NCBI RefSeq assembly: GCF_000485595.1
Contig: NW_014579646.1
Location: forward strand, 3,562 to 28,749
Direction of reading: 5' to 3'
Length of the DNA stretch: 25,188 nt
Origin: Priapulus caudatus
Lineage: Eukaryota > Priapulida > Priapulimorpha > Priapulimorphida > Priapulidae
Shown here: piece after piece, positions 415-23,985 of the stretch
Numbering within the stretch: position 1 is the stretch's first letter
Layout: every line of letters begins with the position of its first letter
Program-made: the position numbers and the translations under genes
Notes under the pieces: model-generated
What the model was told of the DNA's origin: nothing
The model's input: the letters and a program-made list of their open reading frames with translations, nothing else
Databases searched by the model: none

Positions 415-3400
415 CTACTCAGCAAAGAAAGAAGATACGACATGACAGCCGCGGAGATATTATGGAAAAGGACGCAACTGACTCATCACCTAAAACTGGA
501 ACTGTAATCACTATCCAATTAACTCTCTAATTAACTATAATATCGGTGACGCTAATTATAACGCTGACTATCAATAACGGCTATGTATAAGTCACGAGTG
601 TTTGTTCACATCGAACGGAATAGCAAAATAGAAAGTATAATGCAGCAATTTAACCATAAAAAGTGAACAGAACCACTTACAATTTCTGATTAAGCGTGCA
701 TAATTTTCTCACTTTTATTATTGACGGTGACGTAATCACTTTAAGACTAACATTTGTCAGCCCTACACAGGGGGGGGGGGACCTGATTGCCTGCGTCTGC
801 TGCGCGTGCGTGCGGACATACCTGAAGCTGATCCTTCAGGTTCTGGAACGCCTGTCTGACCTCGTCCCCACACTCCGCCATGGTCTGCCTCCACACCATC
901 GCTGGGAAGTGAGCGCGAACCAGGCCAGCGAAGCAGAGCGAGTGCCGGCACAGACGCAGGAGGCTGCGCTGCGCTCTCTGGTTGCCCGTGGCAACGACGT
1001 AGTTGAGGAGGGTGCGAAGGCAGCGCGGGGCGAGCAGGTGGCGTGCGAGCGAGTCGTCGTGTGTGAGACGCGACAGCAGGATCAGGATGTGACCGACAGC
1101 ACCGTGACGATCGCCATGACGACGTGCGGATGCTTCCCGCTGCCCCGCATCCGTCCGAGGCGGCCCCCCGCATCTCTCCTCGCTCCTTCGCACACCCGCG
1201 GCACCGCTCCCGGTCGCCGTGGCAACGCCGCCGACGGACGCCGAACCGTCCGCGGATCCGGTTGAGAGCTGCGACGTGCGGCGGCTGCGTGTTCGTCGTT
1301 TTGGCATCCTGCCAGGCGCGAGCGAGCCGGGCTCCGCCGCCTGATCAACGCTGGCGGTGATGGGTAGTCCTTCCTGCCTCCCCCCATGCAGGCCACTCAC
1401 ACCTGCACCGCTGCTAATGTTCCCCTCGCTATGCTCTCCCACCGAGGTCCCTGCACTCTTACTCTGCTGCTTACGAGATGCCGGGCTCAGCTGTCCGTCA
1501 TTGCGTCTCGTGTCATCCGGCTCGACTGCGGTGAGCAGCAGAGAAGCGACCGCGGGCAGGGCAAGACAGTCCGCGTCCATTTTACGTCGCTTCGACAGCG
1601 GCGGCAGCGATTCAGTTTCGTCGTTGTCGCCCCCGTCACTGTCTTCCGCCGTGGCTCGCCGGTTACCACGGTAACCTTCCTCTCTCGATGTCGTCCCTAC
1701 AGCCTCGGACATCTCCGAGGAACGGGAGGTCTCCCCCGCTGCCGCCACACGATCCCCGGCATCCTCCTCCTCCTCCTCCTCCTCCTCCTCGTCCTCCTCC
1801 ATGTGGGCGACATGAACTGGTGACCACTGTGGGGCGCCAGCGTAGCAGGGCGACGCCTCCCCCTCGCCCATGCAGCGGGAACTCCCGCCTGCGGCGGGGG
1901 AGAGAGGCGGAGAGTATCGCGGCGGCGACCACAGCAACGACGACGACGACGACATCGGGGACGCCGCGTCGCTGCGAGCGGGCGAATACTGCGGCGAGGC
2001 GCCCTCTATAATCGCCGCCGCAGACGCGGCAGGACTGTAGGGCCGCCGCCACGCGTCGGGCGACGCTGCGGGGGACAGCGGGCCGCACAGCGACCCGGGG
2101 CTGCGAGCGCTCTGCGGGGACCAGGCAGGGGAGAACCTGATCGCGTAGCCGGGCGGCTCCGGGGAGCGATCCGGAGAACACCAGCTGCTGGTTCCCGGGC
2201 TCCAGGCCATCCCCATCGGGTCCCTCGGCGGACTCCAGGCCATCCCTGCCAGGTCCCGCGACGGACTCCACGGGTTTCTACCCGGTTCTCTCGCAAACTC
2301 TGACACCGCTGTGACGTCGATCGGTCGGAAGCTCTGCTGGTACGTCGGGCTGTCGATGCGAAACTGGTGAGCCTGCTTGGCTTCTCCTTTCCTCTCTTCT
2401 CCTCTCTGCTCTTCTCTTGTCATCTCTTCTCTTGTCATCTCTTCTCCTCTCTGTTCTTCTCCTTCCCTCACTTCTCCTGTCCTCTCTTCTCTTGTCCTCT
2501 CTTCTCCTCTCTGTTCTTCTCTTCCCTCTCTCTCCTGTCCTCTCTTCTCCTGTCCTCTCTTCTCTTGTCCTCTCGTCTCCTGTCCTCTCTTCTCTTGTCC
2601 TCTCTTCTCCTCTCTGTTCTTCTCCTTCCCTCTCTTCTCCTTCCCTCTCGTCTCCTTCCCTCATTTCTCCTTCCCTCACTTCTCCTGTCCTCTCTTCTCT
2701 TGTCCTCTTTTCTCCTCCCCTCTCTTCTCCTTTCCGCTCTTCTCCTCCCCGCTCTCTCTCTTCTCCTCTCCTCTCTCTTGTATCTGAACGATCTTTCTTC
2801 GTTGAATGCTCATCCTCGTCGGGCGACGATGATACCACGACATCCCCGTCCTCATCCTCATCATCAGTATCTGCCAGCTTCTCATCCTCCGCGTGCAGGA
2901 TGGCTTCATCCCCAGCCTCAGCACCGCACGCGTCTCCGCCCGTGTCGTCCACACGCGTTCGCTTCTCTTCGATCCTCGCCATCGCATCGACACTCCGCTC
3001 CTTGGCACCGTCGTCGTCACACAAGGGGGCGCTACCATCCCGCGCGCCGTCGTCGTCACACAAGGGGGCGCTGCTATCTTGCGTGTCGTCGTCACCAGGG
3101 AAGACGAGAGAGCGCAGTATGTTGGTGAGCGTTGGCACGAGGCCAGCATCCAACAGCAGCCCGAGGCTCGCCTCGTCATAGAGGAACGACAGCAGCGCGT
3201 TAATTACGCGGGCGTGCGTGCCGTCGTCACGGCAACGCAGCAGCGAGAGTAGCATCGGCAGCGCCCCGCACTCGCGCACACGCACGCGGTTCACCGACTC
3301 CCTGCAGCACAGACAGAGGGCGCTGACAAACGCAGGCGAGCGGGATTTCTCAACCTCCTTCAGGAAGAACTGGATCGCTCCGACTCGCCCGAGATCGGGT

Positions 3401-6029
3401 CGGATGCTCACTTCTTGGACGAGTTCGAGCAGCACTCCCACCGCCTGGTGGCGGAATTGTTGCTTCTCGCGGCTGCACAGATCGAGGAGAGTCGCCAGCG
3501 CCCCCGACTGGACGACTTCGTAAGCTGCGTTGGCCGAGCATTTCTCGGTGAGATGGGCGAGGGTTCGTAGGCTGGCGTGAACCACCTCCTCCTTACACGA
3601 ACCCAGCAAGGTCATGACTGCTCTCACAGCGCCGTCTCTTGTCACCTGCCATAACGAAACGATATATTTGAGATGTGAATCGTACAGCATTAGTTCGGAC
3701 TTTTAATTAGTGTGGGAATACATGCATGAGTGTTGCATTCTGTGTGAGAATTTGCAGACTGAAATATTATTTTTTTTTTTTTGCCTTACTTTTACTGAGA
3801 AATCGGTTAATAAATATTCGGAGAAGGTAACAGCAAGAATTGTCTGTCAGGATAGATAACACAGGGCCCGTTTCAAAACACACGCTGGTTTATTTGGTCA
3901 TCAGCCAGCAACCTAACGTCATGTATGTACAATGATGTATATATAACAGCAGCATAGTACAGTGGGGAGGGAGCTGGGTGAGCTTACGTTGGCTTTATGT
4001 TGTGTGGTGTCGGCCAGCAACCTCAGCGTTCTAATGACGGTCAGCTGGAGACGGAAGTCCGCTGTGTCCTGCAGTTTCTTCACAATGACAGGAACCGCCT
4101 ACAGATCGTCAGGTAATAAATCAGCAACAAAGATCAAACTAAAGAGATTACGAGATTCTGGTTATAATACATACCTTTAAAATACATTACAGCGAATTAA
4201 CTCTACAAGAATAAAGGTTTAGAGGCTAAATTGGTCTAATTTAGACCAATTAGAATCGAATGTTAGTTAATATCATGTGGCAATACAAATGGCCTCACTC
4301 TCTTTGTGAATTTGTCAGCATTGTCCCGCGTCCAATGCATCGGAGACAAATGGTTATTCCTATCTATGCTGATAAATTCACAAAGAGAGTGAGGCCATTT
4401 GTATTGTCCTGCGCACCATCTAACGAGCAATTAAATAAACCTGCTCTACATGTATGGTCACCTCTATCTCATGGATCATCTGGGCACTTTTGTTATCCTG
4501 GGCAAGGTTCGCCAACGTCCTGCATGCTCTGTTAGCAATAGAGTCTTTCTTGGTGGCGGTCAGCACATCAACTGCAGTGGCAAACAGCTGATTGTAACAT
4601 TACAGATATGAATATATTGGGGGGGGGGGGTTATTGTGTGGCACTGAAAAGTGATGTGTAATAGTGATACTGCACAATATAAGATTGCTTACCTTCCCTA
4701 AAATTGCCATTTATTATATTACGCTATTTTTATTATTTTTATTATAATTTTCCCTACCAGGTTACCTGTAATACTAACTATATATACAGCTATTGTGGTG
4801 GCTTAACTCACCAATTAGGTCAACTCCATTTCTTCTTCGCACCTAGTGAAACATAAACAATTCATAATGAACTACACTGATAGAGTAGAGTGACAAGAAT
4901 ACTCGTGGGCGATTCATCACAGGTGCTCAGCATGGCAGACTGGTGTAAACTGGGTCTAGGCATGCAGCGCCATCTATGCACGATACATCAAACCATTTAG
5001 CAGACGTCAGCGTAGCACGCACATACAGAGCAGATGTAGGTTTGATCAGTGTGTTAGCCAGAGACACGCCTACCCGTCTTTTGGACAGCCTATTCTTGGA
5101 TGACACGGATGAAATATGATAGAGACGGCATGAGGGCGGCCCAATTTTATATATTATACACCTTGTATATATAACTGACAACAGTGCTTCTAAGAATATA
5201 AAATCATATCAGATTCATGTCTTTTTGGCATTTCAGACTAAATTTCCTCCATTTTAAGGTAAGGCCCTCCCCCTAGGGCGCTCCGCGCCCGCAGCATCCT
5301 CGCTTCGCTCAGATGGTGAGACTCCCTGATTTTTTTCCTGGCTAACAACACCCTGTCCCTGGGTGTGATTCACCAAGCTGCTAGTCTGACAACCACTATA
5401 ATCACACTATGTCTAAAGCTGGGTTTACACTAACAACTTTTAGTTGAACAATTGACGAATTGATCAACTTTTCAAATATTCTACCAAAAGTCAGCAGTGC
5501 AATTTGCTAACGATTAACGTAGTATTATTACTATTAGTAACAATAACAATTAACAATAACAGCGCCTGTAACTTGTATGCGCTCAACCAGTTGATGTCAA
5601 CAGTCAGTTGGTGCAATGCATATTTACTTTAGCAATATGCTTGTATTACAACAACACAATAACACCATAGCCAAACATAAAATCTACCCAAATTATCCTA
5701 ACACGTGTAATTTGACACGATCGTTCATTTATATAGCAAAATTCCAGTAATCCTAGTATAATTAATTATACCTCTATTCTACTCTCCTCCTCAAGGCAGC
5801 AATTACCCAAAATGCTTAGCGCAACCTCGAGTAGTTTGTTCGATGGTTGAAGCAAAACAGGCAAAAGTAGCTTTAGCCCGCCACGGGATCTGAACTTCTG
5901 AAACCCGCAGCTATCATTAGCATACTTATTTCTTATTTTCACTAATTCTTTGTATCTTACTGCATCCGACTCGCTTTGTAAATCTATAAACGGTGACAAA
6001 CGAGCTGGCTGTACACGGGAGCCTTCCAT
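308..6029 (-). CDS. ARMC5: ARMC5 (armadillo repeat-containing protein 5), 3' part beyond the left edge
   Basis: Six minus-strand exons were assembled: 6029-5772, 4842-4812, 4571-4462, 4098-3988, 3645-822 and 414-308. Phases agree throughout except for one 2-nt break inside a repeat of exon 5. The product starts MEGSRVQPARLSPFIDLQSE. Armadillo repeats span about residues 45-350, an acidic and Arg/Glu-rich linker follows, then a Ser/Pro-rich segment with WSP/YSP motifs, a Glu tract, and a second helical region at the end of exon 5 and in exon 6. Blocks such as RFRARGGL-, [15 protein letters not shown] and ESPFGVGALTHLLL-like segments match vertebrate ARMC5. In vertebrates ARMC5 carries a C-terminal BTB domain and works with CUL3. 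That domain is not in the window and should lie to the left. About 1150 residues are seen, so this protein is longer than human ARMC5, mainly because of the low-complexity middle. Confidence 0.92.
415..821 (-). other. ARMC5 intron 5
   Basis: AT-rich 407-base intron with a G10 run at 771-780 (C10 on the coding strand). Nothing else recognised. Confidence 0.75.
822..3645 (-). CDS. ARMC5: ARMC5 exon 5, very long, with low-complexity middle and an apparent 2-nt frame break
   Basis: Acceptor TTATGGCAG at 3646 and donor GTATGT at 821. From 3645 it encodes armadillo repeats (RDGAVRAVMTLLGS, ALPMLLSLLRC, NALLSFLYDEASLG), then an acidic linker with a duplicated APLCDDDG motif. A long Glu/Arg repeat follows (about 2775-2385), then a Ser/Pro-rich segment (2275-1825), a Glu tract near 1800-1760, the NLS-like LSKRRKMD, and a helical region (ILILLSRLTHDDSLARHLL to AFQNLKDQLQ). 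The first part reads in one frame and the last part in another. The change falls inside the Glu/Arg repeat at about 2520-2532, where one repeat copy is 2 nt shorter than its neighbours. With that difference allowed for, the exon is one frame of 942 codons. The alternative is a small intron inside the repeat, but the purine-rich sequence offers no good acceptor. Confidence 0.85.
2385..2775 (-). repeat. Glu/Arg-coding purine repeat (GAAGAGAGGACAGGA type) within ARMC5 exon 5
   Basis: On the plus strand it reads as a TCTCTTCTCCTGTCC-like repeat of about 15 nt with shorter variants. On the ARMC5 strand it codes EERTG/EERTR/EEREG units. The 15-nt unit keeps frame, which supports translation. One copy at about 2520-2532 lacks 2 nt compared with the copies near 2460 and 2623. 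Confidence 0.85.
3988..4098 (-). CDS. ARMC5: ARMC5 exon 4
   Basis: Acceptor ATCTGTAG and donor GTAAGC. It encodes AVPVIVKKLQDTADFRLQL, then TVIRTLRLLADTTQHKAN, one armadillo repeat. It matches human AVPLLVESL and VRALRNLADSPQHR. 37 codons, phase 0 at both ends. Confidence 0.92.
4281..4406. repeat. 40-bp near-perfect foldback in ARMC5 intron 3
   Basis: The arms 4281-4320 and 4367-4406 are complementary over 40 bp with one mismatch (arm starts CAATACAAATGGCCTCACTC), around a 46-base loop. No flanking duplication is obvious. It would form a long hairpin in either transcript strand. Confidence 0.9.
4462..4571 (-). CDS. ARMC5: ARMC5 exon 3
   Basis: Acceptor GCCACTGCAG and donor GTGACC. It encodes VDVLTATKKDSIANRACRTL and then ANLAQDNKSAQMIHEIE, an armadillo repeat matching human [20 protein letters not shown]. 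It ends in phase 0. The donor is GTGACC, which is weaker than the others. Confidence 0.9.
4812..4842 (-). CDS. ARMC5: ARMC5 exon 2, 31-nt microexon
   Basis: Minus-strand acceptor CACTAG and donor GTGAGT enclose 31 nt encoding VRRRNGVDLI, matching the human stretch VRRLGGILPLV. Phase 0 to phase 1. It is too short for ordinary ORF detection, but both phases fit its neighbours. Confidence 0.88.
4843..5771 (-). other. ARMC5 intron 1
   Basis: 929 bases. A short GC-rich block at 5258-5330 (CCCTCCCCCTAGGGCGCTCC and following) looks like a dispersed-repeat fragment. No coding signal or RNA gene seen. Confidence 0.75.
5772..6029 (-). CDS. ARMC5: ARMC5 exon 1
   Basis: ATG at 6029-6027, 86 codons, then donor GTATAA (phase 0). 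It contains YKELVKIRNKYANDSCGFQ and FRSRGGLKLLLPVLLQP, the first armadillo-like helices, and ends LGNCCLEEESRIE. This matches the human segment around LSILADCCTEGACRTEV. Confidence 0.92.
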
Positions 6030-6075
6030 TTTGTGACGTCATAACATCCTGGTATTTCTTTGCATTATCGAAGAA
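6030..6075. promoter_or_regulatory. Shared bidirectional promoter/5' UTR of ARMC5 and the FET gene
   Basis: Only 46 bases separate the two start codons. At 6034-6041 there is a perfect CREB/ATF palindrome TGACGTCA. No TATA box is seen. With so little space the two transcripts must start inside this interval with very short leaders, or overlap into the neighbouring gene. Confidence 0.75.
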
Positions 6076-12000: not shown

Positions 12001-15000
12001 TCATCTTTCAGCGTGTTTTCTATGCCTTATCTGCAGGGTTGTGTATATATATTACGTACACAGTGCCTTCCCCCCCAATATCGCATTAACATTCACATTG
12101 CAAAATTCTATCATGCGATCATATGCCTGCCTTCATATATGCCAGTCTTCCTTTATATGCATATGTGTAAAATACAACTAAAATGTAAACAACAATATCT
12201 GAACCCAACGTTGTATGTCAAGTGTAAACTTTACTTGTGCCTGTTACTATGACATTCATGTAGGCATCTTATTTCAAACTTTTTGCAAGATATCTACATA
12301 GAAGGGTGTCAATTAAAATTACTGTACATAACTAATTAACTAGCCTCAAGATTTTTGTATTACACTTACTCCATGCGTGACGATCGCTGGGCCTGACCTG
12401 ACCTATGGTTTATGGTGTGGGTCGAGTCGGTTGCTTTGCTATAAACCATAGATTTAAGTACTGAACTGATGAGTGTGTAATAGCAGTGCACACATGGTGT
12501 AAGTGTGTTGCTGTGTGATTTATTATACATGTGCCGTGGGATTTAACCACATCGATTGTACCTTCATTGCCCAACACAGATTGATATCCAATACATGTAT
12601 TCCCCTGTATTCACTCAAACAAGTTGGCAGCCCTTGGGGGGTGTGAATTGGGAGTTACTGTGGTTACTGTGTGCATTTCTGTGCGTTTATAACACCGTAA
12701 CGGTTTTGAGCTCTCGTCCTACAGGTGGTGCTATGCGGGTTTATAAGGAAACCCGCGGCGGTCGTGTCGCTCAGCTACATCAGTTGTAGAATATCACACT
12801 CGGGCAAACAAGACCACGAAGTGTGTAGTGTCACTCTGGTATCAACAGTTAAGGGATACCAGAATTCTTGTACCGTCTAAAATAATTTGGTGTACCTCGC
12901 AAGTTGTATTATAGATTATGAGACAGGAAGCTTAGCTTAGCTACTCAACGTCGTGTCATGCGCCGGGACTAACTCTATAACGTTGTTGACTTATAACGTA
13001 TTTTATTCGAAATATCGGGTGGGTTCAGCAATAATTTATGGCTGTGAGAAGGTTATCCAATTTTAATTTTGAAAACACGGCTTTCTAATAGGTTAGCAGT
13101 TTACTTACCAAAAGAAACGAACTAGGTTCTTCTAGTTGAATAGAAAGAAAATAACTATTCAGCATAAGTATTGGAGCAAAAAATACGGATTAAAATTTGA
13201 TGAAATACGTGTGTGATTGCGGTTAGTTTTATGCGTGCAATAGACCGAGCGAGTGTTAAATAGCGTGCTATTTATAAAAAGGGTATAAATTTTGCTCATT
13301 TGGTGAACGAGAGTGTTTTACATGGATTTCTGATGATCATTTGCGAACCCCAAGTCAGGTAGCTAGCAGTGAGAGTTAGTGAGATGTCGGTTAGCTCGGA
13401 ATGTGTGTTGGTTGGTGTGTGTAACGTAATCGCAGAGGTGTTGTGTACCAGTAGCCGAAGAAGAATCGGCACAACGTCTACAGCGAGGAGGGAGGTTCAG
13501 CGATCTGCCGGCCATTGTTACCCACCCCTCGGTCCACCTCGCTCCCACGCAGTGCGTGTGCGGAGCGTGATGGAGGCGCTTGTACTGTGTTGAGGGGTGG
13601 CGTAACATTGGTTGTTATCTTTCTGTTGGAATAGGGGTCAGGATAGAGGCGGATTCAACAAGTTTGGTGGTAAGTGGTCGCAGGAACCACAGCAGTTCTG
13701 TTAGCAGGGTGGTTCTTTTGTTTTTATGTGTATGCAAGTTAAATCCCTGGGAAGAGCCAGGCAACTAGAGTTCAATATCAAAACTATATGTTTTGCTCAC
13801 TTCGCTCTCCGATAGGTACGTGCCAGTTGGCTCTTTCCAGGTTTAGCATTGCAAGGATACACGTATGTGTTATTTGGCGGTAAGTTTTCTCATTCTACAG
13901 TTCTGCGCGTGTTATGTTCCCTGCCCCGTGTAGCCCTCGCCCCCGAAACCACGCGTTACGGAATATAGAGTTGTTGTATGCTATCCACGTGTACGGGAAA
14001 AAGTATACGAGAGTAAAGGCTGCTGCTTGCGTGCGATGCGTGGTAGACTCGGTGACCTACCACAAAAGTGTGTGTTTACGGTTGTCTGGACGGTTGATGG
14101 CAAGCATGCGGCGAGCTGCTGTAACCGTGGCAACGAGCGGCAGCAGACGTGGGAGTACGTACAATCGTTGTCTCCTTGTGTGGTGTACGAGTCACCGACA
14201 GGTTGGGTCAGCGTTACTGACAACACTCGCTCGTCATCGTCCCCCGCACGCGCACAGACGCCGTTATAAGTGTAACTGCACTGGCGCCATCTACAGGAAC
14301 TGAGAGTCATCGGTTACTGCATGTAATGGTTGCAGTGTGCGTATGAGATGCACTGTGAAATTTAACCGCCGACGTAAAACCCGCGGAGTTGTGAGTGAAC
14401 TACTAACTCATGCAGCTGAGGACGCACTGTCAATGATGAAACGTTCTTTCTTGATTTTTATGAGAGCTTATAAGAACTAAGGCGGACTGAGGCAGTGTAG
14501 GGTGGTTAACCTTGCGAGCGTTGAACGTGATTGGTTGGTTGGTTGCATATGCCCTGCCCTCTGGTTGCATGCGAGTGGGCAGCATCGTTACCTCGACAAC
14601 TTGGAAACACTAATTTAAACAAATTACAATGTGTCTGTTGCGACTTTGGGGACTCGAACGCAAACATTCTTAGGGTGTCGTCGTGTACCACCAAGGTATA
14701 CCAAGGTCCTAACATCAAGGTCGTAACACTAAGGTTCTAACATCAAGGGCGTAACACCAAGGCGCGCTAGTTATAGTGCTCCTGTGGTACCACCGTACAA
14801 GGGTCGAGGCGCGAAAGTAATGGTGCTGTGGCACCGGGTTTTACCACTCTCTGAGATGTTTCTAGCTATATGCACTCAGGGTGCGAAATTAACGGGAGTC
14901 TGGAGTCAAATACTCCCTGATTTGACATATGCAGGAGTCTGTGTGTCTCCCTGAAAATTCTGCCATACTAACTATAGTTCGTTCCAGAGCACGGCCTCGC

Positions 15001-18000
15001 GGAATTACCGTATTTTTTCAGCTAATATCCAAAGAAAATTTGGCAGACGTGCAACCGCATAAATCTTAAAAATAAGCACATGCATTATTGTTAATATCTT
15101 TAATTTTGAACCTCGGACTGCGGACTCCTTGTTTTTGAGGGTAGGGAGTCCGTCTGTTGGACTCCCGTGTTCAAAAGTTCATTTCTACCCCTGCGCACTG
15201 GTAGGCCCGGTGTGCCCATAGCCCAGGTATAATGAAGCTTAGGGCAGAGTGTTTGCCTGTGCATATATACGATCTGCAATGACGGGCCAATCGGTGTACA
15301 CAATACGCCAAAACCTGGTGCAACTGTTAGCAGTGGTCGTTCAGGGTTCTCTGTTACACCGCTGTTGTGACGTGGGTGATATTTTTACATATGGTGCCCC
15401 TGTGTAAGGGAAGAGATTGTGTCTGCGCTGCAATGATGACAACTAACAGGTGAATGAAGCAGTGGGAGAAATATTGAATGGAAATCGATCGCTGAAACTG
15501 GAGATGATGCGATCTTAAGCTGTCGTGAAAGCTTGCCGTGCCAACAATGGTACTTTAACTCCTGCCTTCTCTGCTCCAATGCATCGTGTTTAACTTTAAG
15601 CAAGAAACCTTGCCCACTATATAGTTACTCTCCACCCCTTAGCTTCCCTCTGTGTTTCCTCACTGCTGTTATTTAAGGAAAGGTGTATTCTCGGTTATTT
15701 AAGTGTGATGTGACAATGCACGTTTCATATAGCAGGGTTCGGAATGGAAGTGGTGCGTGTGGGGGGAACTGCAGCCGTATGGGTGCATTGCTAGCGTTAT
15801 TTAAGGTTTGTTGTGTTCATGCGTTGCTAGCGTTATGTAAGGTTTGCATTGCGCCAGGCTCAACCTTGCTTCCTGTCATGTGTCTGATGCTATACTCTTC
15901 CTATTGTAAGGTGGTATGCAGCGCCACGCGCTGGTACGTCGTGGTGAGCGGGCAAGGCGGTGCCGGTGCCGCACCGCAGTCCGCCACCGGCACTGCCAAC
16001 CCTGGACGACATCAGCAGGAGCATGAGACAGACGAAGCAATCTTGAGCCATGTGAAATGCTCCTGCGGTGTAGGCGGGGTGGGGGGGGGGATGCGGGCAG
16101 CGGCAGTGTTCAGCAAGTTGCTCTGTGAGCTGTCGTTTTGTTGGACTGGTTTGTCGTTTTGGCAGTGGCAGTGGTAGGGGAAGGGGGTTCCTCCGTGGTT
16201 AGACTCGGTTATCCTGCGTGAGGAATTTGCATGTGAAAAAAGAGGACGGGTATCAGTGAGACAGTTACCTGAGAAACGCCGAGGAGATCTGTCTGTCTGA
16301 ACTGCGCTTGTTCCTAAACCCACACGTGGACGATGGCGCAGCAAGTTCCACAGCGTGTGCGGACTGCTAGTACAGCTTACTAGCATTCACAAAAACAAAA
16401 TTTGCGTGTTTCATCGTCGCACTGAACGTTCAGACGGATCTCCGGGTCGCATCTTCCACTCGGTGAGCTCGTCGCGCTTAAACATCCGCTGCCCGCATTC
16501 CTGCGTAGTCGCGTTAACGTTCCCGCACATTGTCTTCCCCACCCGATGTTCTAATCGCTGTATTTCCTCGTGCACAGGGGATAGAGGAGGCGGAGGAGGA
16601 GGAGGAGGAGGAGGAGGCGGCGGCGGCTTTGGTGGACGTGAGATGGAGACGCAGGAGGATACTGTGTTCATTAGTGGGCTTCCACCAGACGTGACCGAGA
16701 TGGACCTCGCAGACCATTTTGGTGCCATCGGCGTGATCAAGGTCAGAATCCGGGGTACCCCAAGGTCAGGTAGCGGCGCGGCGGTCACCTTTAATATTCC
16801 GTGGCACTAGGAAGCATGAAAACGTTGCGATTAAACGGTGAATGTATGATAGTGTGTGAGTGAGGATCCTTCTTCTCCAAGCACATGATTTGTTTACGCT
16901 GTGCTGAAACCACTCTGTTGACAAAACGTTTCGTAAAATTAGATGTAAACAAGTGTCGGCAACCATTTTGTGGTAACTCAAATTGTTGCATTTTGGCAAA
17001 TTTTGCCCCCAACAAACTCAACATATACCATTAGGAAAACGGCAAACAAACATCTAAAAAGCTGCTTGTCCAGCGGACAAGCTACTGGGCAGGTCTACTT
17101 GTCCTCTGTGGAAATGGACAAGTGAGGAGAAATGGATAGCCATTATTTCAAACACTGCCTATCACTGCCCTAATTAGCATTGTTAATCAATAAACTCGTT
17201 AAGCTTTGCTGCCGATGATGATTCGTTCATCCTCTATTACCATGAGAGTTTTACTCAGAACTAAGGCGGACTGAGGCAGACAGAAGCTTTCGTTCCCAGG
17301 TGACCGTCACCATTTATGTCTATTTAGTGTCTAATTCGGCTTGTTGAACAGACTTTAGCCCCGATTTTACCCTGAGTCTCAAAACTCCTAATTTCACGTT
17401 TGAATCAACGGTAAAGAATTGTATTCTTTAGTTCATGTACGACTGGGGTAATATAGACTGTCCGGTTGAGCAATATTCACGAGAACTGCACTGGAATGGG
17501 ACTGGAGAGGGCAAGCAGCACAGACAGTCAATCTGTATCATGTCTAGACATATCACATGCTAAACACACACATCCTTTCTACAGATGGACAAGAAACTGG
17601 GGAAACCAAAGATCTGGATCTACAAGGACAAGCGAACTGGTTCTCCAAAGGGAGAGGCCACCGTTACATTTGACGACCCGCACACTGCCGGTAGCGCCAT
17701 CTCCTGGTTCAATGGTGAGTTTTCCTCCAGTGACTGTATAGCCGTCTCCTTAGCGGGTGCTGGTGCAGACACGGCGTGAACCCGTGCTTTAGTGAGTTCT
17801 CGGTCGCCTGGTGAGGGTTTATAGATTTGCCTAGTTAGACATCAGCATCTGTTCCAGACCTGCCAACCCTTACGATTTTTTCGTATTCCTTACGAATTCC
17901 ATGATGTTTCTACAAATGTACGATCAAACTGAAAAACTTACGATTTTTTACGACTTGTGAAAATTAATGTTTTTTACATTGTGAGCCGAGAAATATCTGG

Positions 18001-21000
18001 CGATTGTGGGCGCAGCCATATTGGATCACACGTTCACGTTGTTCTCGCGTGATCTAGAGTTAGTCCCATCATTCATTGCGCGCATAACATACAAACAAAA
18101 TGGCCGCCTGCTGCAAGAAAAGAAAAGCCTTACTATTTTCATGAATCACAGGTTGGCAGGTCTGCTGTTCTAACATTTTTGACATGGCACGCGGTTGGTC
18201 ACACACTGTCGATGATGAGACGTTCTTTGCTTGATACCTGAGAGTTTATCAGAACTAAGGCGGACTGAGACAGTGTTAGTACCCACCTGTCGTGACATCG
18301 GACTGTGCGTGGTCTGTAAGAGCTTGGGACAGTCACAGAGGACTTGTGGCATGATAGACTACTACGCTGACAGGATTAAAGCCATAATTTTTAGAATTTT
18401 CTAGTGTTTTATCCACTTTTATGATACCTACCGTTATCGCTTGAGTAACAGCAACTGTCTAGAGTAACGATAAAATGTATTAGAACCTTTGTATTCACCA
18501 AAACGTGCACGTTTCGAACTCGTTCGATTACCACCGCCTTTTCTTGTAATCTGGGACCAGTTAGTACAGCGCCAGCCATCATCCATGGACTTGCACGTCT
18601 CTCGCACAATCTCGTTTGCACCGACAAATTACAAGTTGACACATTTAACCAATCTCGCCCAGTGTTTCCCCTGGCCAAACAGGTCTGTGAGGTGGTGAAT
18701 TTATTTTTGATGTGTTTCCGCATTTCGAGGTCCTAGCAAAGCGAGAATGCCTTTGCTATAAAAAAAAATTAAAAAATGGTGCAATTTGGTGCATTCTAAC
18801 TATTTTGGTGCATATAATCACTATTCTATGGAAGAATAGTGATTTCCATCAGCGAGGCAGTGTTTTGGACAAATTTCTGTGTGGCGGCTGAGAATTTGAG
18901 CGAGGCGGGCCGCCTCGCTCGTGTCAATACAGGGGAAACACTGTCGCCACACGATGTTATTTTCATTGAGTTACAATGTGTTCATATGCAATTTTCTATG
19001 CTATAACTGCATAAAATATCCTAGTATTTTTTAAGTTAGTGTAATCAGTGATATATCCGCTGTGAGGTGAGACTATATTTCGCTATATTTTGTTTCTGGT
19101 TGAGCGTTTCTGAGCCAGAATCTCGCAAATCTAGCTTTAATAGTCTTGCCACCTATAATAATGGGAGTGCAAATCAGATTACCACAGTTGGGTGTAGACA
19201 ACGTCATAGCCATCTACTGTCAGCCTATTATTATTTATTATGTTATTATATTTTGTTATGGATTTGGTATTAACTATTCTTTATCGGTCTAGCGTTGTCA
19301 CGCTCCCTGTACGTTATTGTCGGCTGACTAAACTTGTACCTGTAGTTATATACTTGTGTTCGTTGCAGGCAAGCCATTCAGAAACAGTCACGAGATAAAG
19401 GTTGAGAAGGCGCAGCGGCCTGCCTACCAGGGTGGCGTGGATCGTGGCAGGGGGCGTGGCCGCGGCGGCGGGGGCGGGGGCGGACGAGGCTTCGGGGGTC
19501 GTGGTGGTGACCGCGGCGGTGGTGATCGCGGTGGAGACCGTGGCGGTGAGTCGCACGTGTTAGAATCCAACACTCTTGTTAAGCGCAACGCACACACCCG
19601 AGCAAAATGCGAAATATTGTTTTCTAGCGTTTCGCGTTCTGCTCGGCGAGCAAGCGCACACACGCCACCCCACACAGCACACAGCTGAGCAAAACATACA
19701 GAAACACTGCGTACAGCGCCGCTGTCACATGACATCAAAAATAGCCATCCAATGGACATCCAATTTTGTGTGTCATGTGATATTTTTAAGGATATTGATT
19801 GGAGACCGTCTGTGGCGTTTCGCTGTGTAGCAGATCGATTGACGCACACACCCGAGCAAAACATACGCTCAGGCGAAACACGCTCTGCGAATCAAACATT
19901 GCTTGTTCAGCGAAACATGTTTTGCTCCACGTTCAGGTGTTTTGCTCGGGTGTGTGCGTTGGGCTTAAGTCGTCGCTTAGTTCAACGCTGCGTTCTTTCT
20001 GTGCGTGCGTGCGCGCGTGAAACTAAACGTGATCGATGCTGAACCCGACGAGTGGAGCTTAGCGATCAAGACGTGGCGAGTTTCAACATTGTGATCGTTG
20101 ATTTTCGATAGTTTTTGGTAAATGTTGAATTTGCAATTTGATTTATATTTTAGTCGATGTTGAACATCGATTGATAATTCACGTAGTAGTTGGTATTGTA
20201 CGTATTGATCGGTGTACTGTGTGTTGATCCATGGTTCGAGCGCAGCGCGTTACCGTCGTGGGAAGCGTCGTGTAACGGAGTGTTTCTTGTTGCTACCGCT
20301 GTGATGCTAGGTAGAGGAGGAGGAGGAGGCCCGGGCGCCGGTGGCCCATCACGCGATGGAGACTGGACCTGTCCCAACCCAGACTGTTCCAACAACAACT
20401 TTGCATGGAGGACCAACTGCAATCGTTGCCAGACCGACCGTCCTGAGGGCATGGGAGGTAGGCATTCTTCAGTCTCGCGGCGTTTCGCGATGCAGGCTAT
20501 TTGTCTTGCGTTGATGTGCAATTTTGGCGTTTGTATGTTGAGTGAGCGTATGTGGAGATGTGCTGCAGGACTGCAGTATCGTGTGTTGTCGCTGCGCTAG
20601 CCAGTGACATTGGTATAGTCTAGTACTATCTAGTCTGCAAGCAAACCTGTAGGTACACACACTCTGAAGAGGGCTATGCTATAACACCCTATCAGTGTTC
20701 GAAATAAGGGGGAAAATTTGTTTGTCTGACGGACAAGCTACAAGATATTTTTGCTTGTCCTGCAAAATTTGTGCTTGTCCTGATTAATAACATAGAAATA
20801 TAATAAATGTGTAATACATTTAATCAAATTAAAGTTTAGACCCAATATCTTACCTTGTAATTTTAATACAGTTAACTAACAGTTCAAATTAGACACCAAA
20901 CTTGAAAGAACATAAATAAGCACAATTATTTATTTTAAGTTAAGTTAAGTTACTTGTCTTAAGAAAGTTGAAGCGATGGTAGAAAATGATGAAAAGTTGC

Positions 21001-22049
21001 TCTAAAAAGCTGCTTGTCCAGCGGACAAGCTACTGGACAGGTCTACTTGTCCTCCGTGGAAATGGACAAGTGAGGACAAATGGATAGCCCTTATTTCAAA
21101 CACTGCCTATCACTGCCCTAATTAGCATCGTTAATCAATGAACTCGTTAAGCTTTGCTGCCGATGATGATTCGTTCATCCTCTATTACCATGAGAGTTTT
21201 ACTCAGAACTAAGGCGGACTGAGGCAGACAGAAGCTTTCGTTCCCAGGTGGCGACGCGATGCTTCACCATTTATGTCTATTTAGTGTCTAATTAATTGTC
21301 TCTATTAAATTAATTAACATTAGCGTTAATCTCTTGCAGATGATGCTAACGGGTTTGGCGGTGGTGGACGAGGCGGGTTCCGGGGGCGCGGACGCGGGAT
21401 GGATCGTGGCGGTCGCGGCGGTGATCGCGGAGGATTCCGGGGACGCGGCGGTGACCGAGGCGACAGAGGCGACAGAGGAAGAGGAGGTCCACGCGATTCA
21501 AGGTTAGTGGTTCAAGGTCGTCACTCACGGCACGCGGTTGGTCACACACTGTCGATGATGAGACGTTCTTTACTTGATACCTGAGAGTTTATCAGAACTA
21601 AGGCGGACTGAGACGGTGTTAGAACACACCTGTCGTTACACCGGTGTCAGGGTTCGTAGCGGGTCTTCCAAAGTCTTATAAGTACTTATTTTGCCAAAAA
21701 TAAAATAAGGGCCCTTATTAGTACTTATTTTTGGTGAAATCTTAGAAAAGTACTTAATAGTCCTTATTTTTCGACTTACTGTTCTCGACTTAGAGTAAGA
21801 ATTGTTGTATATATAATACGGAATAATTAAATCTGCTGTGCAATTGTGTATATAAATATTATTAGTGTACTTTAATAGTCGGTGATCGCGTAAAAAAGTC
21901 TTATTTTGGCCTCCAGAAAGGGTCTTATAAGTCTTTATTTCAACATGTGTCTTACTACTATGAACCCTGGGTGTGTTGAAACTGCATTCATGAGTTATTC
22001 CGTAACGTCTTTCTGCTGCAGGGAGGATAGGCGGCCGAGACCATACTAG
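6076..22049 (+). CDS. FUS: FET-family RNA-binding protein (FUS/EWSR1/TAF15-like), complete, 15 coding exons
   Basis: This is a nuclear RNA/DNA-binding protein of the FET family, acting in transcription and splicing and able to form condensates. Joining the fifteen exons listed below gives 1707 nt and 568 residues in one unbroken frame, with GT-AG at every intron. Residues 1-205 are a low-complexity region rich in Tyr, Gly, Gln, Ala and Pro with repeated SYG/GYS-type motifs. Residues 206-319 are Gly-rich and include the RGGFNKFGG block. The RRM is about 327-413 (RNP2-like TVFISGL, RNP1-like KGEATVTF, K-loop MDKKLGKPK). RGG1 is about 422-463. The RanBP2 zinc finger is at 474-500, with Cys477, Cys482, Cys493 and Cys496. 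RGG2 is 506-560, and the end [10 protein letters not shown] is a PY-NLS. Length and domain order fit the family (human FUS 526, TAF15 592). It could be a single pre-duplication ortholog of all three vertebrate genes; linkage to ARMC5 favours the name FUS. It also hosts snoRNAs. Confidence 0.96.
6271..6290 (+). promoter_or_regulatory. CCAAT box followed by a YY1-like site in FET intron 1
   Basis: CCAATC at 6271 is followed by AACATGGCTGCGG, which fits the YY1 consensus AANATGGCNGC. These are typical core-promoter elements, so part of the promoter may lie within intron 1. Function is inferred from motifs only. Confidence 0.35.
6597..6636 (+). CDS. FUS: FET gene exon 2
   Basis: The acceptor is TTTCAG and the donor is GTAAGT. 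The 40 nt encode [13 protein letters not shown], the start of the Tyr-rich low-complexity region. It begins in phase 1 and ends in phase 2. Confidence 0.88.
7029..7113 (+). CDS. FUS: FET gene exon 3, Tyr-rich low-complexity region
   Basis: A T-rich tract leads to the acceptor AATAG; the donor is GTATGA. The 85 nt complete a Ser codon and then read [11 protein letters not shown], followed by QQYGQPPP. Five tyrosines sit in small-residue contexts. It ends in phase 0. Confidence 0.9.
7186..7353. repeat. (TGCG)n-rich microsatellite with GAGC variants, FET intron 3
   Basis: About 165 bp of alternating TGCG/CGTG and GAGCG units. All six frames can stay open here (Arg-Thr-His-Ala or Val-Arg-Ala-Cys repeats), which is an artefact of the repeat. 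Alternating purine-pyrimidine sequence may adopt Z-DNA. Confidence 0.92.
7518..7686 (+). CDS. FUS: FET gene exon 4, Tyr/Pro-rich low-complexity region
   Basis: The acceptor is TTTTTCTGCAG and the donor is GTACAG. It encodes a 56-residue stretch with motifs [13 protein letters not shown] and [11 protein letters not shown], containing seven tyrosines. It ends in phase 1. The donor is weak, so small changes at the 3' end are possible, but the phase joins correctly to exon 5. Confidence 0.88.
7687..8638 (+). other. FET intron 4
   Basis: 952 bases. It holds a short TG run at 7794-7822 and two small hairpins: GCCACTCC/GGAGTGGC at 8170-8192 and CATAGACTA/TAGTCTATG at 8311-8338. No gene seen. Confidence 0.7.
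8639..8824 (+). CDS. FUS: FET gene exon 5, Tyr/Gln/Pro-rich low-complexity region
   Basis: The acceptor is GCTTGCAG and the donor is GTCAGT. It encodes repeated SYG/ASYG and poly-Pro stretches (for example [15 protein letters not shown]). It begins and ends in phase 1. It contains seven tyrosines. Confidence 0.92.
8988..9075. repeat. (TG)n/(TGCG)n microsatellite, FET intron 5
   Basis: TG and CGTG units with TGCCTG variants end about 30 bases before the exon 6 acceptor. Similar short runs occur at 7794-7822 and 9517-9550. Confidence 0.85.
9105..9227 (+). CDS. FUS: FET gene exon 6, end of Tyr-rich region
   Basis: The acceptor is CTTTCCAG and the donor is GTAGTG. It encodes [18 protein letters not shown] and ends SGGYSQ. 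It begins and ends in phase 1. Confidence 0.92.
9228..9599 (+). other. FET intron 6
   Basis: 372 bases with a short TG/CG run near 9517-9550. Nothing else recognised. Confidence 0.7.
9600..9692 (+). CDS. FUS: FET gene exon 7, Gly-rich
   Basis: The acceptor is GCTGTTAG and the donor is GTAACG. It encodes [18 protein letters not shown] and then a Gly-rich end with GGYGRGG. This is the transition from the Tyr-rich to the Gly-rich region. Phase 1 to phase 1. Confidence 0.9.
9841..9970. repeat. Small inverted-repeat element, FET intron 7
   Basis: GGGGCCTGTTGTCAG at 9841-9855 and its exact complement CTGACAACAGGCCCC at 9956-9970 enclose about 100 bp. No clear target duplication is seen. It is probably a further MITE or foldback. 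Confidence 0.6.
10011..10370. mobile_element. TTA-flanked MITE with internal tandem repeat, FET intron 7
   Basis: Ends GGCCAAAACAAAATA and TATTTTGTTTTGGCC are inverted, extending with small differences to GTGTGGTTAC / GTAACCACAC. TTA flanks both sides (10008-10010, 10371-10373), which would fit a PIF/Harbinger-type target. The right half holds the 48-bp tandem repeat listed separately. Confidence 0.7.
10202..10345 (+). repeat. Three tandem copies of a 48-bp unit
   Basis: Units start at 10202, 10250 and 10298 with the identical beginning ATGTTTCCCCTACCTACTTA. The unit is a multiple of three and so gives an open frame ([16 protein letters not shown] three times), but it lies inside a MITE in an intron and I do not regard it as coding. 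Confidence 0.9.
10490..10643 (+). CDS. FUS: FET gene exon 8, Gly-rich
   Basis: The acceptor is GTGCGTAG and the donor is GTAAGC. It encodes a Gly/Tyr/Ser-rich stretch with GGSGGYGG repeats, ending [12 protein letters not shown]. It ends in phase 2, which fits only the 35-nt exon 9 and not the RRM exon directly. Confidence 0.9.
10644..13634 (+). other. FET intron 8 (2991 bases)
   Basis: Contains the TTAA-flanked element at 11377-11972 and a 10-bp hairpin CTATGGTTTA/TAAACCATAG at 12402-12450. The rest shows no coding or RNA-gene signal. It is unusually long for this gene and precedes the frame-shifting 35-nt exon. Confidence 0.7.
11377..11972. mobile_element. TTAA-flanked non-autonomous element (piggyBac-like), FET intron 8
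   Basis: TTAA occurs at 11373-11376 and 11973-11976. The ends are AGGGATACTAGACTCTAGG and, inverted, AGGGATCC...CTAGGG. An inner inverted pair GAAAAAGTTGCGCA / TGCGCAACTTTTC suggests a folded interior. No transposase frame is present. The superfamily is inferred from the TTAA target only. Confidence 0.6.
13635..13669 (+). CDS. FUS: FET gene exon 9, 35-nt microexon ([12 protein letters not shown])
   Basis: The acceptor is GGAATAG and the donor is GTAAGT. The 35 nt encode [11 protein letters not shown], closely matching the block [10 protein letters not shown] of human FUS and RGGFNKPGG of EWSR1. Its length is not a multiple of three, and it is the only unit that joins phase 2 (exon 8) to phase 1 (exon 10). 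Skipping it would therefore shift the frame. It stands between the two longest introns of the gene, 2991 and 2908 bp. Confidence 0.93.
13746..13841. repeat. Small foldback in FET intron 9, just after exon 9
   Basis: CCTGGGAAGAGCCA pairs with TGGCTCTTTCCAGG over 14 bp with one mismatch, and CCAGTTGG/CAGGCAACT extends it imperfectly. It lies 77 bp downstream of the 35-nt exon and could be structural in the pre-mRNA or a MITE remnant. Confidence 0.55.
14424..14498 (+). ncRNA. Intronic box C/D snoRNA, copy A (FET intron 9)
   Basis: C box AATGATGA at 14432-14439 and D box CTGA at 14487-14490. The closing stem GCACTGTC (14424-14431) pairs with GGCAGTGT (14491-14498), with two G-U pairs. The antisense element AGAACTAAGGCGGA lies directly before the D box. 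A D'-like ATGA is at 14460-14463. About 75 nt and in the host sense strand, as is usual for intron-encoded guides of 2'-O-methylation. Confidence 0.85.
14710..14765 (+). repeat. Four tandem 14-bp units (TAACAYCAAGGTCG type)
   Basis: Units begin at 14710, 14724, 14738 and 14752: TAACATCAAGGTCG, TAACACTAAGGTTC, TAACATCAAGGGCG, TAACACCAAGGCGC. A diverged partial copy precedes them. Confidence 0.85.
14877..15193. mobile_element. hAT-like MITE (FET intron 9)
   Basis: The ends are CAGGGTGCGAAATTAACGGG and, inverted, CAGGGGTAGAAATGAAC. The flanks TGCACT/CGCACT form a near-perfect 6-bp target duplication. Its right half (from about 15088) is shared with bases 1-115 of the window. It contains inverted GGGAGTCC/GGACTCCC blocks and has no coding capacity. 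Confidence 0.65.
15786..15847 (+). repeat. Direct repeat of TTGCTAGCGTTATTTAAGGTTT, two copies
   Basis: Near-identical copies begin at about 15787 and 15824 (T/G difference in the second), a short tandem duplication in FET intron 9. Confidence 0.75.
16578..16741 (+). CDS. FUS: FET gene exon 10, Gly tract and first half of RRM
   Basis: The acceptor is GTGCACAG and the donor is GTCAGA. A polyglycine tract encoded by a GGA/GGC repeat is followed by [17 protein letters not shown] and ends at VIK. This gives beta1 (RNP2) and helix 1 of the RRM. It ends in phase 0 within the K-loop region. Confidence 0.94.
17052..17336 (+). repeat. Duplicated segment carrying snoRNA B (partner 21004-21292)
   Basis: It is nearly identical to 21004-21292, from AGCTGCTTGTCCAGCGGACA through the snoRNA to TTTATGTCTATTTAGTGTCT. 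It begins inside the right half of a hAT-like MITE. That MITE's left half is missing here but present at the partner locus. Confidence 0.85.
17209..17279 (+). ncRNA. Intronic box C/D snoRNA, copy B (FET intron 10)
   Basis: C box GATGATGA at 17214-17221 and D box CTGA at 17271-17274. The stem CTGCC (17209-17213) pairs with GGCAG (17275-17279). The same D-box antisense AGAACTAAGGCGGA is present, with a different D' element (CATCCTCTATTACC before ATGA). It is nearly identical to copy D. Confidence 0.87.
17585..17714 (+). CDS. FUS: FET gene exon 11, second half of RRM
   Basis: The acceptor is TTTCTACAG and the donor is GTGAGT. It encodes [19 protein letters not shown], then [17 protein letters not shown] and SAISWFN. 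The RNP1 segment has Thr where canonical RRMs have an aromatic residue, as in other FET proteins. Confidence 0.96.
17855..18164. mobile_element. hAT-like MITE (FET intron 11, next to snoRNA C)
   Basis: Perfect 14-bp inverted ends CAGACCTGCCAACC / GGTTGGCAGGTCTG. A perfect 6-bp direct repeat CTGTTC sits directly outside both ends (17849-17854, 18165-18170). 310 bp, non-coding, AT-rich with TTACGA motifs. Confidence 0.85.
18203..18276 (+). ncRNA. Intronic box C/D snoRNA, copy C (FET intron 11)
   Basis: C box GATGATGA at 18211-18218 and D box CTGA at 18265-18268. The perfect 8-bp stem ACACTGTC pairs with GACAGTGT. D' box CTGA is at 18238-18241, preceded by TTCTTTGCTTGATAC. The shared D-box antisense element is present. 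74 nt. Confidence 0.9.
18660..18943. mobile_element. hAT-like MITE (FET intron 11)
   Basis: Perfect 14-bp inverted ends CAGTGTTTCCCCTG / CAGGGGAAACACTG, with the 5-bp direct repeat TCGCC outside. 284 bp, non-coding. It contains an internal palindromic GCGAGGC...GCCTCGC block. Confidence 0.85.
19369..19545 (+). CDS. FUS: FET gene exon 12, RRM end and RGG1
   Basis: The acceptor is TCGTTGCAG and the donor is GTGAGT. It encodes [17 protein letters not shown] (last strand of the RRM), then [10 protein letters not shown] and [18 protein letters not shown]. The RGG box is a likely arginine-methylation and RNA-contact region. Phase 1 to phase 1. Confidence 0.95.
19583..19964. mobile_element. TTAA-flanked inverted-repeat element, FET intron 12
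   Basis: TTAA at 19579-19582 and 19965-19968 flank inverted ends. The left starts GCGCAACGCACACACCCGAG and the right end is its complement with one mismatch. Partial internal copies of the terminal motif (CACACACCCGAGCAAAACAT near 19845) are present. Non-coding. Confidence 0.65.
20311..20457 (+). CDS. FUS: FET gene exon 13, RanBP2-type zinc finger
   Basis: The acceptor is GATGCTAG and the donor is GTAGGC. It encodes a Gly-rich lead and the finger [17 protein letters not shown], then [14 protein letters not shown]. The four cysteines follow C-x4-C-x10-C-x2-C, and the Trp before the first Cys is the family Trp. It should bind GGU-type RNA. Confidence 0.96.
20693..21105. mobile_element. hAT-like MITE (FET intron 13)
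   Basis: Inverted ends CAGTGTTCGAAATAAGGG / CCCTTATTTCAAACACTG (17 of 18 match) and the 5-bp target duplication CCTAT at 20688-20692 and 21106-21110. The interior has repeated CTTGTCC/GGACAAG hairpins. A left-truncated copy lies in intron 10. Confidence 0.87.
21004..21292 (+). repeat. Duplicated segment carrying snoRNA D (partner 17052-17336)
   Basis: The partner of the segment in intron 10. Here the MITE part is complete with both target duplications, so this locus looks like the source. Confidence 0.85.
21157..21227 (+). ncRNA. Intronic box C/D snoRNA, copy D (FET intron 13)
   Basis: C box GATGATGA at 21162-21169 and D box CTGA at 21219-21222. The stem CTGCC/GGCAG and both antisense elements are the same as copy B. 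The flanking sequence is also duplicated with copy B over about 290 bp. Confidence 0.87.
21340..21502 (+). CDS. FUS: FET gene exon 14, RGG2
   Basis: The acceptor is CTCTTGCAG and the donor is GTTAGT. It encodes [18 protein letters not shown], several [10 protein letters not shown] repeats and the end RGGPRDS. It ends in phase 2, with AG completing an Arg codon in the last exon. Confidence 0.95.
21546..21619 (+). ncRNA. Intronic box C/D snoRNA, copy E (FET intron 14)
   Basis: C box GATGATGA at 21554-21561 and D box CTGA at 21608-21611. The 8-bp stem ACACTGTC/GACGGTGT contains one G-U pair where copy C has A-U. The elements are the same as copy C except one base in the D' guide. It starts only 43 nt after the intron's 5' end. 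Confidence 0.9.
21648..21969. mobile_element. hAT-like MITE (FET intron 14)
   Basis: Inverted ends CAGGGTTCGTAG / CTATGAACCCTG (one mismatch) and the 5-bp target duplication GGTGT at 21643-21647 and 21970-21974. 322 bp. The interior has repeated CTTATAAGT/CTTATTTT units. It ends about 50 bp before the last exon's acceptor. Confidence 0.83.
22022..22049 (+). CDS. FUS: FET gene exon 15, PY nuclear localisation signal and stop
   Basis: The acceptor is TTCTGCTGCAG. With the split Arg codon it reads REDRRPRPY followed by TAG at 22047. This C-terminal R-x(n)-PY signal is the transportin-binding PY-NLS of the family (human FUS ends RRERPY). Confidence 0.97.
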
Positions 22050-22832: not shown

Positions 22833-23402
22833 CTTATCCCGACCTTGTCCTGTTTTGCAGTTTTGTCTTTTGTCAGTTGCGTGTATAGTGAGAAATACTC
22901 CATTATTTACTTTCAATGTGTTTAGCTCATCTGACACAGTCAGAATGGCATGAGCGACCGTCCGGCAACAGTTGGGCACAAATCTAAACAGCTTGATGTA
23001 CGGTTTCGAAATTGGGGACGTAGGTAGGTAGTCCGAAAACGCATTGTGATCTCGAATCTGGGTGGTCAAAGGTTAGGGTTCCCCCTTAACTTGAGGTATA
23101 GGAAGGAGTTGTGGTACAAATCTAAACTGCTCGACTTATGGTCTTGATAGTCTGTATGTAGGAGGGTGTACAGGTTGTTGTCTTCCTCCCTCCATACCTC
23201 CCCCTCTCCTCCCACCTCCCTCCCCTGTCCTATCTCCTTCCCTCAACACCTCCAGGATCCTTTATATTTTGCATTTCCTTTTTTGAATGTCACTTAGTTT
23301 CTCTGACAGTTTGCGTAATAAATTGTTAATCCTCTACAATGATTTTCTCAATGTATGTTATTTCTCGGCTATGGATTTCCTTTTATTTTTCTCTACTTGG
23401 TA

Positions 23403-23574
<172 letters not shown>

Positions 23575-23985
23575 TCACGCGTACAACAGTTTATAATAGT
23601 TTGTTTTGTTTAAAAATCCTCCCGCCCACTAGCCTCTCTACTCGCCCCCTTTTCTCACATACCCCCCCCCCCGTACCCCTCTTCAATAATGTATCAGCGA
23701 CTTTGATCAATTATGACATATTCGCGCCATCTATCGGGAGAAATAATTTATATGTGCACATTGTATCAGGAGTCTATCGATAGTGATTGTATCATTGTAT
23801 ACCGAGCAAGGGTGCAACCACGTGTTGAAAGTTGGGGGGGGTCCCAAGCAGCCAATAGCAACGTGATCTGCGGGCAAGCGAATATCACGTATTGGTTCAA
23901 TATCACGTATTTCAGCATGTTGATGGAAGTGTTGCATAATTGTGATGTCATAAATGACATTACTAGGATCATGTATACTCGTTTT

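Follow-up and report, generated by a model that had tools for sequence, protein, structure and literature searches.

In vertebrates, multi-copy box C/D snoRNA families are sets of paralogs that lie in different introns of one host gene and are ascribed to intragenic duplication, and spread across the introns of a single host by cis duplication is the usual form of such families in human and chicken (PMC8178906, PMC2653536). Intragenic duplication into several host introns is the ordinary route of C/D family growth. For the 18S rRNA segment considered below, the closest described guide is Arabidopsis SnoR20.1, to which 18S Um1013 is assigned in Table 1 of PMC8053127, and that paper also gives Am978 as an Arabidopsis 18S site. 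Yeast snR79 (18S Cm1007) and Neurospora crassa CD18 (18S Cm1004) are directed at the same 18S segment. A guide is expected to pair without mismatches in the core of the duplex, around its target, and a mismatch there can abolish guiding.

The window analyzed here is a stretch of 25,188 nucleotides of Priapulus caudatus DNA (contig C2283, bases 3562-28749) that contains a FET-family gene on the plus strand. Five snoRNA-like elements, copies A to E, lie in the introns of this gene, and unlike in the vertebrate multi-copy C/D families, the host is an invertebrate FET-family RNA-binding protein gene. The FET gene probably hosts a five-copy, cis-duplicated family of C/D guide snoRNAs for position 1009 of the 18S rRNA. 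The RNA kind and the cis-duplicated family pattern are known, and the FET host is unusual.

The host is a genuine FET-family gene, as seen from its Pfam domains, its cabeza/FUS homologs, and its RPRPY C terminus. The exon translations contain an RRM and a RanBP2-type zinc finger (Pfam), and proteins named cabeza, FUS, EWS, and TAF15 are found among the best 120 of 289 matches. The last seven exons were placed by splice sites and reading frame, with homology in addition for three of them, and the six introns between them all have GT/AG ends. The exons are as follows.

13635..13669, plus strand: FET exon upstream of copy A (splice sites; reading frame by eye)
16578..16741, plus strand: FET exon, Gly-rich stretch and first half of the RRM (tblastn, Pfam)
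17585..17714, plus strand: FET exon, second half of the RRM (tblastn, Pfam)
19369..19545, plus strand: FET exon, end of the RRM and RGG repeats (splice sites, reading frame)
20311..20457, plus strand: FET exon, RanBP2-type zinc finger (tblastn, Pfam)
21340..21502, plus strand: FET exon, RGG repeats (splice sites, reading frame)
22022..22049, plus strand: last FET coding exon, ending in REDRRPRPY and a stop (sequence; acceptor site)

The REDRRPRPY end is a PY-type nuclear localization signal. A tree of 34 FET rows did not resolve where this animal belongs. An ARMC5 homolog (window positions 747-6038, minus strand; Pfam ARM_ARMC5) lies head-to-head with the FET gene, and the 16 ARMC5 homologs listed show at most 39% identity to it. 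Human ARMC5 and FUS are also close neighbors, at 16p11.2, and the linkage of ARMC5 with the FET gene may be old. An inverted repeat at 19579-19968, with 29-nt arms that are 97% complementary, 332 nt between them, and TTAA at both ends, looks like a piggyBac-type MITE; it occupies the sole late FET intron without a snoRNA. A long (TC)n microsatellite is located downstream of the FET gene, at 23390-23575.

The five copies and their shared element before the D box are located as follows.

14425..14498, plus strand: copy A, in the 2.9-kb intron 13670-16577; C box 14433-14439, D box 14487-14490, 8-bp stem
17210..17279, plus strand: copy B, in intron 16742-17584; C box from 17215, D box to 17274, 5-bp contiguous stem
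18204..18276, plus strand: copy C, in intron 17715-19368; C box from 18212, D box to 18268, 8-bp stem
21158..21227, plus strand: copy D, in intron 20458-21339; snoRNA identical to copy B, 5-bp contiguous stem
21547..21619, plus strand: copy E, in intron 21503-22021; 44 nt from the 5' splice site, 8-bp stem
14473..14490, plus strand: guide and D box AGAACTAAGGCGGACTGA (18 nt) in copy A; the same element starts at 17257, 18251, 21205, and 21594 in the other copies

Every copy (5/5) has the C box ATGATGA and the D box CTGA within a closing stem. When both strands of the window were scanned for [AG]TGATGA followed, after 35 to 110 nt, by CTGA and enclosed by a stem of 5 bp or more, exactly five matches were obtained, which are copies A to E; in 200 sequences resampled by a first-order Markov model, the mean was 0.05 matches and the maximum 1. 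The five elements in host orientation reported in the first-pass annotation are where it had placed them, and their number (5 against 0.05 expected) far exceeds chance. The copies occupy the first, second, third, fifth, and sixth of the last six FET introns, all in host orientation, which is the same relative pattern as the introns 9, 10, 11, 13, and 14 named there. A covariance model of the five copies matched only A to E in the window, with no degenerate extra copy, and copy A scored 95.2 bits against this model, which was built from the same five copies. In fold energy the copies are unremarkable, with z scores from -1.46 to 0.18.

The element before the D box had been described as identical throughout the family, and it is: all 18 letters of AGAACTAAGGCGGACTGA, D box included, are the same in the five copies, whereas the D' half has diverged. 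The segment between the C box and a TGAGAG block exists in three versions (A, B/D, and C/E). The TGAGAG block itself is kept in every copy and, judged by its sequence, could be the C' box; the D' box has no clear example. The stems were also said to carry changes that keep pairing. Two-sided changes do occur in 2 of the 8 pairs, one of them an isolated outer pair, among four distinct rows, but 55 of 500 shuffles match this, and the covariation is weak, suggestive and not beyond shuffles.

Two pairs of copies lie inside longer duplicated intron segments.

17053..17336, plus strand: duplicated intron segment with copy B (local alignment to 21001-21293)
21001..21293, plus strand: duplicated intron segment with copy D (local alignment to 17053-17336)
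18183..18301, plus strand: duplicated intron segment with copy C (119 nt, 94%)
21526..21644, plus strand: duplicated intron segment with copy E (119 nt, 94%)

The B and D segments (284 and 293 nt) have zero differences inside the snoRNA and six substitutions plus indels in the flanks, a lack of change within the snoRNA that is not significant by our own estimate (about 0.15). The C and E segments differ at seven positions per 119 nt, two of which are inside the snoRNA. Because B and D are identical and C and E are near duplicates, the five copies count as about three independent instances; the five-member family of the first-pass annotation stands as to its number of copies but does not consist of five independent inserts. 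A palindromic GCTTGTCC element begins the B and D segments, and a third, related copy without a snoRNA is present at 20713-20761.

The animal's own 18S rRNA was represented by three loci, L011, L012, and L013 (contigs C572, C37, and C1057), which were found by DNA similarity and all match SSU_rRNA_eukarya; the site sequence in each of them is CAGATACCGCCCTAGTTCTGACC. Guide positions 2 to 15 of copies B to E form 13 Watson-Crick pairs of 14 with this site, and the guide of copy A forms 12 pairs with one mismatch, at duplex energies of -23.7 kcal/mol (B to E) and -19.8 kcal/mol (A). Guide snoRNAs are recognized by 10 to 20 nt of complementarity to an rRNA or snRNA, located directly upstream of D or D', which copies B to E show at 13/14. 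In the 4.2-kb stretch searched, 1 of 1,000 shuffled guides equaled this match; none of the 174 other CTGA-adjacent 14-mers of the window reached it within the SSU stretch, and over the wider 4.2 kb, three of the 174 reached 13/14, outside the 18S. At an insect-type site the guide matches 12/13, which was equaled by 1 of 500 shuffles and by none of 174 other CTGA-adjacent 13-mers, and the duplex energy at that site was reached by 2 of 300 shuffled 13-mers. Lenient scoring that admits G-U pairs was uninformative, as equally high scores came from 12 of 400 shuffles and from 12 of the 80 other plus-strand CTGA sites, after which the stricter Watson-Crick counts were used. Complementarity alone is modest evidence, since shuffled 13-mers reach the energy and controls reach the lenient score. 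The guide is also nearly the reverse complement of the 18S segment of a published insect 18S primer (PMC10051671). Exact printed matches to the letters of the guide or of its perfect target number two, one of which is an unrelated primer.

The base at D+5 meets a C at SSU position 1009, in the yeast-like numbering of the 1,800-nt L005 SSU. The 18S target segment is homologous to the bacterial 790 loop. Position 1009 would equate with Arabidopsis U1013, provided that no indel separates the target from the Am974/Am978 site in Arabidopsis, because the reference methylation is Am974 in yeast 18S (PMC5199042) and Am978 in Arabidopsis, an offset of 4. For none of the three loci used does the downstream sequence examined (roughly 10 kb) contain a 28S, L012 carries indels just after the target site, and all three may be stray copies, possibly other than the active rDNA. 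The matched part of the 1,831-position SSU model spans more than 2 kb in L011 and L012; these loci may be dispersed pieces of rDNA, or the 18S may be unusually long. The loci L003, L004, and L005 are eukaryotic rDNA in records named Blastococcus, Bacteroidetes MAG, and Planomonospora, an apparent contamination of bacterial assemblies.

No copy forms a mismatch-free core duplex. At the seventh guide position counted from the D box (position 7), which is two bases away from the target, all five copies carry an A opposite a C, where the animal's own 18S needs a G, at a predicted cost of about 6.6 kcal/mol for B to E. This core mismatch puts the efficiency of guiding in doubt; membership in the C/D RNAs is unaffected. 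In PMC8053127, a predicted site with one mismatch was unconfirmed, though its guide was also not expressed.

The variable upstream (D') half is without a convincing rRNA target. As an rRNA guide it was rejected, its energies with the insect-type SSU being within the shuffle range; it was also tried against half of a foreign LSU, without a shuffle control, and against the own 18S stretch, where a single 9-mer of copy A was the only exact match of at least 9. The element CGUUCUU, present in copies A, C, and E, has a match in the AAGAACG of SSU 970-976, which precedes the main site by about 35 nt, and could be an accessory pairing, although its 7 bp were judged to be within chance. The stretches 17152-17175 and 21100-21123, upstream of copies B and D, show partial (71%) complementarity to copy A over its guide, D box, and 3' stem.

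Comparison with Rfam, named as a check in the first-pass annotation, turned up nothing at the gathering cut-offs: zero matches, and no family reached, in the window. The score for snoR20a, which together with SnoR20.1 was taken by name as one family, is 23 bits against a cut-off of 42 (E, 5.8), and the copies are not filed in it. Like A to E, SnoR20.1/snoR20a has a D-box guide against the homologous 18S site, and the snoR20a consensus GAACUAGGACGG(U)CUGA places its guide in the same register, with 14/17 letters of guide and D box alike by eye. Between them and A to E, the change of guide position 5 from A to G tracks that of the rRNA target from U to C. Unlike SnoR20.1/snoR20a, copies A to E are shorter, have C as the target base, carry one guide mismatch, and score below the cut-off. 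N. crassa CD18 has its guide upstream of the D box, as A to E do, and the snR79 site is two nucleotides upstream of the site predicted here. By its numbering, the Drosophila Me18S-C1096 snoRNA may address the same 18S site; a literature search for a Drosophila 18S-C1096 guide found nothing. For copies B and D, snoR77Y scored 29.5 bits (E, 0.025), below its cut-off, with AUUACC shared, and was rejected, as its 18S target forms only about 6 pairs with B/D by hand. SNORD103, SNORD108, SNORD34, and U8 (E up to 10) were likewise all below their cut-offs.

In the mechanism that we favor, the family would have grown through duplication of intron segments within the FET gene, and the spliced introns would release each copy as an RNA of about 70 to 75 nt. 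The C/D proteins would bind each RNA where the terminal stem closes the C/D motif, and the D-box guide (C)AGAACTAAGGCGG would pair with the 18S rRNA at ACCGCCCUAGUUCUG and direct the 2'-O-methylation of C at SSU 1009, the counterpart of Arabidopsis Um1013 with SnoR20.1. Expression, snoRNP assembly, and methylation are what we infer from the sequence. The proposal of the first-pass annotation that the FET gene is a multi-snoRNA host is borne out as far as the DNA can speak to it, by C/D architecture above chance, FET domains, confinement of the genome matches to this gene, and an 18S guide match in the D+5 register. Beyond that annotation, the addition is a predicted 18S target for the invariant D-box element, weakened by the shared A·C mismatch.

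A different outcome for the same RNAs is unlikely: the copies may be expressed C/D snoRNAs in which the core mismatch blocks 18S methylation, leaving them as orphans or as guides for another RNA with a U opposite position 7. The copies all (5/5) have the A at position 7, which is mismatched to each of the animal's three 18S loci, and its own 28S is known from one 104-base match to a 500-base query, both of which leave room for such a target. On the other side, the site of the 13/14 match in the D+5 register corresponds to a methylated position in a plant, and the second-best rRNA match is weaker, 7 against 11, in a set made up of a foreign SSU with an insect-type site, a foreign 5.8S, and half of a foreign LSU. 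We regard it as very improbable that the copies are a dispersed repeat, a snoRNA-derived retroposon, or non-expressed pseudogene copies, although two pairs of copies sit in longer duplicated segments that include flanks, and the B/D segment contains the palindromic GCTTGTCC with its related piece at 20713-20761. A 91-nt query around copy C, searched against the whole 385-Mb genome of the animal, gave five matches, which are A to E only, all in the FET gene and all in host orientation; the search scored the best candidates, so that repeat counts are lower bounds (a first look gave just five candidates), and a query of this kind could miss strongly diverged relatives that keep the guide alone. 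The boxes and the stem are kept in 5/5 copies, and the model search found no degenerate further copy in the window. With the genome matches confined to five copies in the FET gene, the same sequence dispersed at many sites, which the first-pass annotation had said would count against a snoRNA family, is not what is found, and the repeat or pseudogene explanation is largely refuted by the genome search. Pattern matches in the viral contigs L001 and L002 were judged to be chance by a rough estimate.

Equally improbable in our view is that the copies act mainly in cis, with snoRNP assembly tuning the splicing and output of the FET gene, as for SNORD86/NOP56 and SNORD2/EIF4A2. Such an action would fit human FUS, which came down with snoRNAs and selected host transcripts in pull-downs, in an assay that does not discriminate for sure between binding to the one or the other, and whose loss changes snoRNA levels and rRNA methylation (PMC9941101); snoRNAs that regulate their own host genes are reviewed in PMC11028025. 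It would also fit the stretch upstream of copy B, which folds onto the guide (17140-17290, 151 nt, z of -1.65), but 9 of 200 shuffles fold as low and the fold is not significant. In addition, the copies share no common distance from the splice sites, which ranges from 44 to 755 nt on the 5' side and from 112 to 2,079 nt on the 3' side. A bolder idea, which we rate as quite unlikely, joins the FET protein, snoRNP assembly on the introns, and methylation of the 790-loop region of the 18S into one circuit, in which the mismatch would make methylation partial and dose dependent, hence five copies. The link between FUS and snoRNAs and the self-regulation of host genes make this circuit thinkable; they are not evidence for it here.

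The preferred explanation therefore remains a cis-duplicated family of C/D guide snoRNAs carried by the FET gene. The first-pass annotation knew of no FUS, EWSR1, or TAF15 gene as a snoRNA host, and our literature search, which was not exhaustive, likewise found no FET gene in this role; FUS, TAF15, and EWSR1 were not met as hosts in the parts of PMC2653536, PMC8178906, and PMC3511168 that were available. If the copies are expressed, a FET-family gene would join the known snoRNA hosts, and a relative of FUS and a snoRNA family would be co-produced in a natural setting, which is relevant because of the effect of human FUS loss on snoRNA levels and rRNA methylation described above (PMC9941101). 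Otherwise, copies A to E are an ordinary cis-duplicated C/D family. The complementarity suggests that, in this animal lineage, an 18S methylation known from a plant may have as its guide a multi-copy family with a shared mismatch, and this shared guide mismatch would be testable for effects on stoichiometry.
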